Source: Sulfitobacter brevis
GTDB lineage: Bacteria; Pseudomonadota; Alphaproteobacteria; Rhodobacterales; Rhodobacteraceae
DNA length: 64,000 nt
Direction of reading: 5' to 3'
Assembly (NCBI RefSeq): GCF_900112755.1
Contig: NZ_FOMW01000007.1
Location: forward strand, 62,001 to 126,000
In this document: positions 3,636 through 64,000 of the stretch, in pieces
Position numbering within the stretch: the first letter of the stretch is position 1
Layout of the letters: each line of letters begins with the position of its first letter
Position numbers and translations under genes: made by a program
Notes under the pieces: model-generated
What the model was told of the DNA's origin: nothing
The model's input: the letters and a program-made list of their open reading frames with translations, nothing else
The model's database searches: none

Positions 3636-6600
3636 ATGGCCCGCCTTACCAATACCCCCGATTCCCTGCGCCACCAGATCGATACCGGCACCTATGCCGA
3701 AACCACGGATGTGCTTCAGGGCCTGATTGATACAGCGCAGCTCAGCGCCGAAGATCGCGCCAAGATCAGCGCCGAGGCGGCTGAGCTTGTGCGTGCGATC
3801 CGTAACTCCACCTCGCCAGGGATGATGGAAGTGTTTTTGGCCGAATATGGTCTTTCCACCGATGAAGGCGTGGCGCTGATGTGTCTCGCCGAAGCACTGC
3901 TGCGTGTACCCGATGCCGACACCATCGATGCGCTGATCGAAGACAAGATCGCTCCCTCCGACTGGGGTCGCCATATGGGCCACTCGACCTCCAGCCTCGT
4001 CAATGCCTCGACATGGGCGCTGATGCTGACAGGCCGTGTGCTGGATGACGACCAGCCCGGCCCCGTGCGCCACCTGCGCGCCGCGATCAAACGTTTGGGC
4101 GAGCCGGTGATCCGAACCGCTGTGACCCGCGCAATGAAGGAGATGGGCCGCCAGTTCGTGCTGGGCGAAAACATCACCGCCGCGATGGAACGTGCCAAGG
4201 GCATGGAGAAAAAGGGCTTCACCTATAGCTATGATATGCTGGGCGAAGCCGCGCGTACCGAGGCCGACGCCAAACGCTATCACCTGAGCTATAGCCGCGC
4301 GATTTCGGCAATCGCCACCGCCTGCAACGATGCCGACTTGCGCCGCAATCCGGGAATTTCGGTAAAACTTTCGGCACTGCACCCGCGCTATGAAATTGCG
4401 CAGGAAAAGGCAGTGATGCGCGATCTTGTGCCGCGCCTGCGGGCCTTGGCGCTGCTCGCGAAATCGGCTGGCATGGGCCTGAACATCGACGCCGAAGAAG
4501 CCGACCGCCTCGCCCTGTCGCTCGACGTGATTGACACCGTGCTTTCCGAGCCTGCCCTGTCGGGTTGGGATGGGCTGGGCATCGTGGTACAGGCCTACGG
4601 CCCCCGTGCCGGATCGGTGATCGACGCCCTTTATGAAATGGCCGTACGCCATGACCGCAAAATCATGGTGCGGCTGGTCAAAGGCGCCTATTGGGATACC
4701 GAGATCAAACGTGCCCAAGTCAAAGGCATCGATGGTTTTCCGGTCTTTACCCAGAAGGCGGTGACGGACGTGTCCTACATCGCCAACGCCCGCAAGCTGC
4801 TGTCGATGACCGACCGGATCTATCCGCAGTTCGCCACCCACAACGCCCATACGGTCAGCGCGATTCTGCACATGTCCGATGACAAAGAGAAGTTCGAGTT
4901 CCAGCGCCTGCATGGCATGGGCGAGACCCTGCATAATCTGGTGATGAAACAGCACGGCACTCATTGCCGCATCTATGCCCCCGTCGGTGCGCACCGCGAT
5001 CTGCTAGCCTATCTGGTGCGGCGCTTGCTTGAAAACGGCGCCAACTCCAGCTTCGTCAACCAAATTGTCGATGAAGATGTGGCCCCCGAAGAGGTCGCCG
5101 CCGATCCGTTTGCCCAGCTGAATGCCGTCGCCTCCGACATCCCGACCGGACCGGAATTGTTCAAACCCCTGCGCGCCAATGCCAAGGGGTTTGATCTGAC
5201 CCACACCCCGACCCTGGCATCGATCGAAGAGGCCCGCAGCCCCTTCCACACCCATCAGTGGCAGGCCGGACCGATGCTCGCCGGCGCCGCTCAACCGGAT
5301 GAAACGCTAAAGGTGAGCAACCCTGCCAACCCCGATGACGCAGTTGGCACTGTCAGCCCCGCATCGCTCGCCGATGTCGCCACAGCAATCAAATCCGCGC
5401 AGGTCTGGGACGCGCCGCTGTCCGAGCGCAGCGATATCCTGCGCGCGGTCGCCGACCTGTTGGAGGAGAACTACGGCGAGATTTTCGCACTGCTGGCCCG
5501 CGAAGCTGGCAAGGGGTTGCCCGATTGCGTAGCCGAGCTGCGCGAAGCCGTGGATTTCCTGCACTACTATGCCGCTCAGGCGACCAATATGCCGCCCGCT
5601 GGCATCTTTACCTGCATCTCGCCGTGGAACTTCCCGCTCGCGATTTTCATCGGGCAGGTTTCAGCGGCTTTGGCCGCAGGCAACGCAGTATTGGCAAAAC
5701 CGGCAGAACAAACCCCGCTGGTCGCCGCGCTGACCGTAAAGCTGATGCACCGCGCTGGCGTTCCGCAGACCGCACTGCAACTCTTGCCCGGTGGTGCTAG
5801 GATCGGCGCGGCTCTGACCTCTGATCCTTCGATCGGTGGCGTGGCCTTTACCGGCTCCACGGGCACTGCGCTGCGCATCCGCGCCGCCATGGCCGAACAC
5901 TGCGCACCCGGCACACCGCTGATCGCGGAAACCGGCGGCATCAACGCGATGATCGTCGACAGCACCGCGCTGCCCGAACAAGTTGTTCAATCCATCGTTG
6001 AAAGCGGTTTTCAATCCGCCGGACAGCGATGCTCGGCCCTGCGCTGCCTCTATGTGCAGCAAGACATCGCCGAAGATCTGGTGAAAATGCTGATCGGCGC
6101 GATGCAGGCGCTGAATATGGGCGATCCGTGGCACCTGTCGACCGATGTCGGACCAGTGATCGACCAGACCGCGCGCAAGGTCATCACCGACCATATTGAG
6201 GCCGCGCGCAGCGAGGGCCGCATCATGGCCGAACTGACCGCGCCCCAACACGGTACCTTTGTCGCCCCGACGATCATCAAGATCGACGGTATTGCCGATC
6301 TCGACAAGGAAATCTTTGGCCCCGTACTGCATATCGCCACCTTCAAAGGTGGGCAAATCGACAAGGTCATCGATGCGATCAACGCGACCGGCTACGGGCT
6401 GACCTTTGGCTTGCACACCCGCATCGACGACCGCGTCCAGCACGTCTGCGAGCGGGTGGAGGCGGGCAACCTCTATGTCAACCGCAACCAGATTGGCGCG
6501 ATTGTCGGCAGCCAGCCATTCGGCGGCGAAGGCCTGTCCGGCACCGGCCCCAAAGCGGGTGGCCCGAACTACCTACCTCGCTTTGCCGAGCCTGATGTCG

Positions 6601-59140: not shown

Positions 59141-59217
59141 TGGGGCGACCGACGGGGCTCGAACCCGCGACCACCTGGATCACAACCAGGGGCTCTACCA
59201 GCTGAGCTACGGCCGCC
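59141..59217 (-). tRNA. tRNA-His (anticodon GUG) with encoded G-1 and C73
   Basis: On the minus strand GCGGCCG (59216-59210) pairs with CGGTCGC, the anticodon loop TTGTGAT carries GTG, and the T-arm is GCGGGTTCGAGCCCCGT. The base before the acceptor stem is G (59217, G-1) and the discriminator is C73 (59144), followed by encoded CCA (59143-59141). It lies 62 bp downstream of hisS on the same strand. Confidence 0.96.
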
Positions 59218-59279
59218 TCAGCGCCGATGGGTCTAGCCTCTGATCCGGCTGCTGTCCATAGGCTTTGTCACAGTTTTTT

Positions 59280-60605
59280 TCAGCTTTCTGCAAACCTTTT
59301 GGCGAAACTGTCCAGGTCGATCTCGGACTGGGTGCCATTGCTCATGTCTTTAAGAAACGCAGTGCCGTCACGGGTCAGCCAGACGAAGGGAATGCCTTTG
59401 TCGTTGGCATATTTAAGTTGTTTATCCAGCCGCGCCACATCTGGCAAAACCTCGACATTGACGCCAAGCGCGCGGATTTGTGCCGCAAGCGCATGCGCCG
59501 TATCGCCCGCGCCTTCTTCTTCATTGGCCACCAGAACCTGTGTTGGGCTTTTGCGCCCCGGGGTGACCAGACCTTCCTTCAGCAGCTTGGTAAAGATACG
59601 CGTCAGACCGATGGAAATTCCGACCCCGGGCAATTTGCGCCGCATAAACGAGCTCACGAGATTTTCATAGCGCCCGCCCGCACAGATCGACGGGTAATCG
59701 GGGAAGTCGATGAACCGCGCCTCATAGACAACGCCGGTATAGTAATCGAACCCGCGCGAGATCGAGAGATCACCGTCGATGATGTAGTTTTCGGGACGCG
59801 TGGCCTCCACCCGGTCCAGCAGCGTACAGAGCTGGTCACGCCCCTCGCCTATTGCGTCGGCGTCGAGCTTCAACGCATCCAACCCGTTAGAGATCGCGTC
59901 TGCATTGCCGTAAACTTTGCAAAACGCGATGCAGGTGTCGATGGCACGCGTGTCCAGCGCCAACTCGGTGCTCAGCCGCTCTGCCAGTTGTTCGCCACTC
60001 AGCTTGTCAACCTTATCAAGGATACGCGCCAAACGGGTTGCGTCGGCGAGCCCCAAACTGCTCGCAAGCCCGTCCATGATCCGCCGGTTGCTCACCTGAA
60101 ACTTAACCGGCCCTACGTCGAGCGCCGTGAGCGCCACAACGGCCATTTCCAGCATCTCGGCGTCAAAGGCATGCGAAACCGTTTCGCTGTCGATCACATC
60201 GATATCGCATTGGGTAAACTCGCGGAAACGGCCTTCCTGTGGGCGTTCGCCGCGCCAGGCGCGTTGCATTTGATAGCGTTTGAAAGGGAATGTCAGGTTG
60301 GAATAATGTTTGGCCACATAGCGCGCTGTTGGCACGGTCAGGTCGTAGTGAAGCGCGAATTTGGGCGTGCTGCCAGCTTCGGCGGCCAGACGCGTCAGCG
60401 CGTAGATTTCCTTGTCGACATCCTCGCCCTTTGAGGCAAGCGTCGCAACCGTCTCAACCGAAGGAGTTTCGATATTCGCGTAGCCGTAGCTCTCGAAAAC
60501 CCGCGCCAGCTTGGCCAGCCACGCCTGTTCAAGCGCGCGTACTTCAGGCGTAAACTCAGGAAAACCGCTCATCGCGAAATCGAGTTTTTGGGCGTTATTG
60601 GCCAT
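59280..60605 (-). CDS. hisS: Histidyl-tRNA synthetase
   Basis: A 441-residue class II synthetase starting MANNAQKLDF, with AAGGA 10 bases upstream. The motif 2 loop reads RGERPQEGRFREFTQ (RPQ at residues 121-123), the form that contacts G-1:C73 in well-studied HisRS. The HisA/HisB motifs include ISRGFDYYTGVVYE and ICAGGRYENL, motif 3 is GVGISIGLTRI, and the anticodon-binding domain covers about 345-435. The typical Rhodobacterales HisRS, as I recall, has an EKPGPGR-type loop instead. Confidence 0.95.
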   Translation of the reverse strand: MANNAQKLDFAMSGFPEFTPEVRALEQAWLAKLARVFESYGYANIETPSVETVATLASKGEDVDKEIYALTRLAAEAGSTPKFALHYDLTVPTARYVAKHYSNLTFPFKRYQMQRAWRGERPQEGRFREFTQCDIDVIDSETVSHAFDAEMLEMAVVALTALDVGPVKFQVSNRRIMDGLASSLGLADATRLARILDKVDKLSGEQLAERLSTELALDTRAIDTCIAFCKVYGNADAISNGLDALKLDADAIGEGRDQLCTLLDRVEATRPENYIIDGDLSISRGFDYYTGVVYEARFIDFPDYPSICAGGRYENLVSSFMRRKLPGVGISIGLTRIFTKLLKEGLVTPGRKSPTQVLVANEEEGAGDTAHALAAQIRALGVNVEVLPDVARLDKQLKYANDKGIPFVWLTRDGTAFLKDMSNGTQSEIDLDSFAKRFAES

Positions 60606-62899: not shown

Positions 62900-64000
62900 T
62901 CAGCCCGAAACACGACGCTGGGCTGCATGATTACCTTTTTCACGGTCATCTTTATCCGAAGGAAGTACGAAATGGAAAGAACTTCCTGACCCGGGATGGC
63001 TTTCAAAGCCTATCGATCCGCCGAGGCTCTCGACAATCGCTTTACAAATGCTCAACCCAAGCCCCGTTCCGCCTTTGCCACTTCGGTCCGAATTTGAAAG
63101 ATCGGCAAAACGTTTGAACACTTTATGCTGATCCTCAGCCGGAATGCCGGCTCCTTCATCACGCACTGTAAGTGTCATGCCGCGAGGACCTTCAACACAA
63201 CTTACGTGAATAATACCATTTGGGCGGGAAAATTTCGACGCATTCGAGATAAGATTAGTGAGAACCTGAATTATACGATTGGGATCGGTATAAATCACTT
63301 CACTACCTTGAACCCCGTCGAATAGAACCCGCTGACCGAAGTTCTTTGTCGTCACAGCACTGGCTGCAATCGCTTCTTTCACAAGCTCATCTAAATCTAC
63401 ATCACACATGGTAAACTCCATGCGACCCGTTGTGATTTTTTCGAGATCGAGAATATCGTTAATAATAAGAACCAATCGGTCCGCATTACGATGGGATATT
63501 TCCAATAGGCTTTTCGCTTTTGATGGCACGTCACCCGCGGCACCTGACAGCAGCAAACCCATCGATCCTTTGATTGACGTCAACGGTGACCGCAATTCGT
63601 GGCTTACCATCGAAATGAAGTCGGCCTTCAGCTGTTCTTGTGCCAGGCGATCCGAAATGTCGTTGAGCAAAATTAGGAAACGGCCACTGCTGCGTTTATT
63701 GCGCAGCAATTTAATGGTCACGTCAAAGTGCGAGCCCAGAACTGACATCTCGTGATGTGCAATTAACTCGCCAGTGCGGTGCAACGCGGCGCAAGCGTCC
63801 AGAATCGGGCCTGTTTCCTGCTCGACCGCCAGATCGACCAGTGATTTCTCGCTATACTCGTTCTCGCTCCAACCAAATCGCGCCATCGCTGTGCGGTTCA
63901 TGTAGCGGAAGTGCAATGTTTTTTCATCGACGATCCAGACGTCATCGCGCAATTCATGCAAAGTCAGGGCCGTATCCCGCTCAGCCAGTAGTTTTTTGTG
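62900..64000 (-). CDS. PAS-containing sensor histidine kinase (5' end beyond window)
   Basis: The frame is open to the window edge, so the N terminus is missing; 366 codons are visible. A PAS domain (from about VWIVDEKTLHFRYMNRTAM) is followed by the HisKA domain with the phosphorylated histidine in SMVSHELRSPLTSIKGS. The HATPase domain has the N box NLISNASKFS, G1 DEGAGIP and G2 GGTGLGLSI. No receiver is fused at the C terminus. Signal unknown. It probably phosphorylates the CheY-like protein encoded next. Confidence 0.93.
   Translation of the reverse strand, partial: HKKLLAERDTALTLHELRDDVWIVDEKTLHFRYMNRTAMARFGWSENEYSEKSLVDLAVEQETGPILDACAALHRTGELIAHHEMSVLGSHFDVTIKLLRNKRSSGRFLILLNDISDRLAQEQLKADFISMVSHELRSPLTSIKGSMGLLLSGAAGDVPSKAKSLLEISHRNADRLVLIINDILDLEKITTGRMEFTMCDVDLDELVKEAIAASAVTTKNFGQRVLFDGVQGSEVIYTDPNRIIQVLTNLISNASKFSRPNGIIHVSCVEGPRGMTLTVRDEGAGIPAEDQHKVFKRFADLSNSDRSGKGGTGLGLSICKAIVESLGGSIGFESHPGSGSSFHFVLPSDKDDREKGNHAAQRRVSG

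Follow-up and report, generated by a model that had tools for sequence, protein, structure and literature searches.

A histidyl-tRNA synthetase gene (hisS) and a tRNA-His gene lie side by side in the DNA analysed here, a 64,000-nucleotide stretch of the Sulfitobacter brevis genome (the window; G000:C23:62001-126000), with the tRNA 63 nt downstream of hisS and both genes on the minus strand (Table 1). The pair has the identity elements of a classical bacterial histidine pair and sits in a genus of the other kind, which raises the question of whether the two genes were acquired together and whether they replaced or joined the native pair, as an initial annotation of the locus had suggested. We find it very likely that a matched, probably orthogonal hisS/tRNA-His pair was transferred into this lineage and that both native genes were then lost.

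Table 1. Features of the hisS/tRNA-His locus (window coordinates)
Feature	Position	Strand	Evidence
hisS, histidyl-tRNA synthetase, 441 aa, very probably of acquired type; reading frame from ATG at 60605 to the stop at 59280	59280..60605	-	TIGR00442 over cut-off; trees
Codons 121-123, Arg-Pro-Gln of the motif-2 loop	60237..60245	-	Sequence; alignment A1
Probable promoter of tRNA-His, TGGACA-N17-TAGACC	59230..59258	-	13 nt before G1; conservation in cassettes
Encoded G-1 of tRNA-His	59217	-	Sequence
tRNA-His (GTG), C73, CCA encoded	59141..59216	-	ARAGORN; Rfam RF00005, 62.7 bits (Rfam span 59144-59216)

The synthetase is a clear member of its family. It scores 324 bits against TIGR00442 (profile positions 3-405 of 406; curated cut-off 286.75; score obtained with a longer GTG start), and the nearest solved structure by sequence, 3net, is also a HisRS (E 3.7e-79). 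Motif 2 reads RGERPQEGRFREF and contains Arg-Pro-Gln at residues 121-123, as the initial annotation stated; these three residues are invariant in alignment A1 (10/10 rows), and the loop form in the window HisRS is RPQEGR. In E. coli HisRS, C73 and G-1 are read by loop residues Gln118 and Arg123, according to PMC10100707. The glutamine of the classical motif-2 loop is present in the window HisRS as Gln123, and on the tRNA side the encoded G-1 and C73 noted earlier are both confirmed by sequence (G at base 59217; C as the discriminator). The window pair therefore has the identity elements, the RPQ loop and the above-cut-off TIGR00442 match of a classical bacterial pair, but unlike that pair it has the synthetase beside its tRNA and lies in a genus of the other kind.

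The native pair of the genus is of the derived kind. PMC3937112, citing Ardell & Andersson 2006 and Wang et al. 2007, describes the pair of the RRCH clade as lacking G-1 and having A73 and Gly123, and assigns this derived tRNA state to Rhodobacteraceae, Rhizobiales, Caulobacterales and Hyphomonadaceae; PMC9976931 confirms that the loop and base 73 covary. Using the window HisRS as a query, we found matches in 32 of 35 same-genus genomes, all at 33-39% identity, the three genomes with no match being 64-87% complete. Every HisRS read from these 32 genomes (23/23) has the EKPGPGR motif-2 loop, and every same-genus tRNA-His read (16/16 genomes) has T-1 and A73 with the acceptor strand GCCGCCU. The earlier statement that many Rhodobacterales are reported to use an EKPGPGR-type HisRS and to have lost G-1:C73 agrees with the genes read in the window genus, and close relatives sharing the window's own loop and tRNA did not occur there. 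RRCH-type features are absent from the window pair, which has C73, G-1 and Gln123 in place of A73, no G-1 and Gly, so that all three characters are in the opposite state. The RRCH pair is the native one of the genus, found at the expected place in relatives and lost in S. brevis.

The two-gene unit, or cassette, is not confined to one species. Of 394 genomes drawn from the family, two have a window-type HisRS at E 1e-60 or better, S. brevis and G507, and in all we find the unit in four other roseobacter-type genomes (G507, G840, G843 and Phaeobacter sp. CECT 5382), each time on one strand with hisS followed by the tRNA, which extends the proposed acquisition beyond the window species. The spacing between the genes is 63 nt in the window and 174, 175, 190 and 388 nt in the others, and all five tRNAs have G-1 and C73. 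Identity to the window HisRS is 73-75% in g342, the genus of G507, and 71% in the Phaeobacter strain, which has one HisRS over the TIGR00442 cut-off; the other loci listed in a scan of named genomes (80 loci kept) are all at 49% or less. The genus g342 holds both states, with the window type in three of five genomes and the native type in two, and each of the five has a single HisRS match at 1e-15, one type each. The foreign HisRS is at loci L307, L308 and L311, which share one cassette site, and the native type is at L309 and L310. None of the genomes examined has both a foreign and a native HisRS.

We examined the origin of this HisRS with a quick tree of 89 sequences and a careful tree of 45. 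In these trees, the five cassette HisRS form one clade (support 100/100) on a long stem (1.12), nested in a 14-row set (99/98) with G134, Rhodospirillaceae, Tagaea and SAR116-type alphaproteobacteria, and the native-type HisRS are separate from this set with support of 100/100. The sister of the cassette clade is, at a lesser support of 94/90, the HisRS of G134, an 84% complete genome from another family. The HisRS tree called for by the initial annotation hence separates the window HisRS from the native type with full support; more widely, its closest kin belong to other alphaproteobacteria whose tRNA-His is classical. By its same-genus matches, its loops and both trees, the gene conflicts with the kinship of its genome. 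Some other alphaproteobacteria have an E. coli-like HisRS, from which the branch of the window HisRS is widely separated. Of 385 genomes of the class, 42 carry a related HisRS, S. brevis among them, and the matches listed in the named-genome scan include Actinomycetota and Chloroflexota. The same broad type is seen in the actinomycetotal genera Streptomyces, Nocardiopsis and Frankia (L108, L110-L112, L118-L121, L127, L135 and others). A tRNA-His was recovered in 21 of 23 genomes with the window HisRS type, the other two giving no match, and all 21 have G-1 and C73.

Adjacency of the two genes is rare, as had been claimed, outside the cassette clade. With about 1.5 kb of flank, one of 29 class loci of related HisRS has a tRNA-His near the HisRS match; with up to 6 kb, one of 80 listed loci in the scan of named genomes does, versus five of five in the cassette clade. 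In G134, contig C48 (L103), positions 4330-5896, a tRNA-His stands beside hisS in divergent orientation. Since this linkage, divergent as it is, lies outside the roseobacters, linkage may predate the transfer or may have arisen twice.

The tRNA is 84-93% identical to the tRNA-His of classical alphaproteobacteria and of the other cassette carriers versus 71-74% to two native tRNAs of the genus, and its acceptor stem, GCGGCCG, differs throughout from the native GCCGCCU. Frequent transfer of synthetases is established, and transfer of single synthetase genes is common, according to PMC9839398, so hisS could in principle have come alone, with the native tRNA-His mutating to G-1/C73 and moving beside it. 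Against the tRNA identities and the wholly different acceptor stem, the lack of a tRNA at the native tRNA-His locus (see below) and the linkage of the pair in all five carriers, we regard this course of events as extremely improbable. The preferred reading is that hisS and tRNA-His would have arrived as one piece. All five cassettes keep TGGACA, a 17-nt spacer and a hexamer starting with TA, 12-13 nt 5' of the tRNA, and this conservation makes it probable that the tRNA-His of the cassette has its own promoter.

The initial annotation had asked for a second hisS and a second tRNA-His in the genome; neither was found, and it is the relatives that carry the EKPGPGR type. In a profile search of the genome, the window copy is the one HisRS over the TIGR00442 cut-off and no second was found. 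Weaker HisRS-like matches on contig C17 were considered as a second hisS and rejected, since they are hisZ, and further weak matches below the cut-off lie at C23:216724-217773. The genome gave 37 tRNA-family matches; ARAGORN confirms 36 of them as tRNAs, one being tRNA-His, whereas a weak match (32 bits) at G000:C41:13501-13570 (L042) is not called a tRNA by ARAGORN. A second tRNA-His was found neither in this Rfam/ARAGORN list, which lacks tRNA-Tyr and tRNA-Ile and is therefore incomplete, nor in two pattern searches, which likewise gave one tRNA-His in this genome and the first of which matched just 29 of 58 same-genus genomes, false matches among them, while the stricter missed the same-genus control G026. 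Because the patterns are insensitive, absence of the native tRNA-His is a weak observation for the Phaeobacter strain and G507, and for S. brevis it is based mainly on the scar described next.

Both native genes have left scars in S. brevis, the one carrier of the five that the scar analysis covers. The native order, as in G014, is dnaE, hisS, hisZ, hisG. On either side of the hisS position, contig C17 of S. brevis aligns collinearly with G014, G010, G008 and G026, and dnaE, hisZ and hisG are still there, but the aligned blocks are separated by 185 nt, versus about 1.66, 2.39, 1.60 and 1.67 kb in these relatives, respectively. A tblastn search with the native HisRS gave no meaningful match on C17:1-20000 that would represent a hisS remnant. 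Likewise, contig C37 is collinear with G420, G014, G008 and G015, each of which has its tRNA-His in a gap of the alignment; this gap measures 199 nt in G420 versus 36 nt in S. brevis, and 257 versus 27 nt in the comparison with G014, and no tRNA was found on C37:40000-57000. As the native hisS and tRNA-His are both gone from their collinear loci, the foreign pair is, on this genomic comparison, a replacement of the native pair and not an addition to it, which settles in favour of replacement the choice that the initial annotation left between replacing and joining.

The assembly is a draft of 4.24 Mb in 68 contigs and the genus holds no close relative of the pair, so one might suppose that contig C23, or the pair in it, comes from another organism through assembly error or contamination. 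The genome is, however, 99.98% complete with 0.28% contamination, C23 matches same-genus genomes on either side of the pair, and removing the pair would leave the genome with no HisRS at all. Moreover, both scars are internal to C17 and C37, away from contig gaps. We consider such an artefact very improbable.

A different account holds that a roseobacter ancestor carried both pairs, that each lineage kept one of them, and that the unit then moved within genomes. The cassettes do form one clade, and the HisRS of the window and g342 cassettes are 73-75% identical, close to the 75-80% between the native HisRS of the two genera, so that divergence alone also fits an old common presence. The unit is nevertheless present in just two of the 394 family genomes and absent from all 32 same-genus genomes that gave a match, both pairs occur together in no genome examined, and among the relatives compared the native hisS and tRNA hold collinear positions. 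The positions of the cassettes also differ: between the window, the Phaeobacter strain and g342 the alignable part is hisS and tRNA-His with little upstream DNA, which makes these three sites with unrelated flanks, the three g342 loci having flanks in common. An old presence would require many parallel losses and a long coexistence, and we judge it unlikely. The rarity of the unit, its different sites and the lack of any genome with both pairs argue instead that the units arrived separately and that the window pair came from a roseobacter-type source outside the sample.

The third-position GC of hisS is 68%, versus a window median of 69% (34 ORFs, real or not); this ordinary composition neither supports nor denies transfer. 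A histidine-kinase-like ORF at window positions 62900-63961 has a third-position GC of 49% against the same median. The window pair is flanked on the left by a peptide-binding protein gene and on the right by a response regulator gene, and the Phaeobacter cassette has an ABC ATPase and an error-prone DNA polymerase as neighbours; no integrase or transposase was seen among the neighbours identified. A second tRNA 3' end, with up to 6 mismatches in 26 allowed, was not found in the window. In eight same-genus genomes whose listed matches show both flanking genes of the window pair, the two are not adjacent, and hence we claim no empty insertion site.

Based on these data, we propose that an ancestor of the window species took up hisS and tRNA-His as a two-gene unit. 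Its ultimate source would be alphaproteobacteria with a classical G-1:C73 tRNA-His, and its more direct source would be another roseobacter-type bacterium. The incoming HisRS would read G-1 and C73 through Gln123 of RPQEGR, and the native EKPGPGR HisRS would read a tRNA that has A73 and lacks G-1. In Caulobacter, the E. coli HisRS/tRNA-His pair is orthogonal and works when both parts are present and not otherwise, as reported in PMC3875453; by analogy with this pair, which differs from the window pair, the window HisRS would charge only its own tRNA in its host. If the two pairs do not cross-charge, either gene alone should be useless, the two together should do no harm, and both pairs should be able to coexist. 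The presence of both would make the native pair redundant and leave its two genes free to go; loss of the native hisS and tRNA-His would then have followed the acquisition, with dnaE and hisZ-hisG kept. A recognition rule of its own would thus explain the linkage of the pair, the joint loss of the native genes and the either-or pattern among genomes.

A linked synthetase and tRNA are known from pyrrolysine, where the pyrrolysyl-tRNA synthetase and its tRNA are inherited and transferred as a pair. That pair adds an amino acid, whereas the window pair takes the place of existing machinery for a standard one. The Caulobacter crescentus construct of PMC3875453 likewise puts a G-1:C73 pair into a host whose own pair has A73; it was built in the laboratory with an amber anticodon and supplements the native pair, whereas the window pair is natural, reads histidine codons and stands in a genome from which the native pair is gone. 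In PMC3937112, the transfer of identity rules is held to be necessarily relatively rare, and a suggestion by Wang et al. is mentioned that the derived pair was co-transferred into a SAR11 ancestor. A prior report of a classical pair replacing a derived one was not found in the literature, within a scope that stops short of the founding papers of the topic.

More speculatively, a self-sufficient, promoter-carrying hisS/tRNA-His unit might have invaded roseobacters at least three times, each time displacing the resident pair and bringing its own identity rule, and it may spread because the switch pays, for example by evading an agent directed against the resident HisRS or tRNA-His; we offer this as a tentative possibility, on balance doubtful. 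In S. brevis, the transfer can be read step by step, from the donor type and the unit to the insertion and the two scars of the native genes. The derived rule, which is used as a clade marker, is here reversed in single species, and such a marker can therefore fail. Lastly, g342, a genus having both states, makes the process directly testable, including coexistence of the pairs, the order of gene loss and selection for the change.
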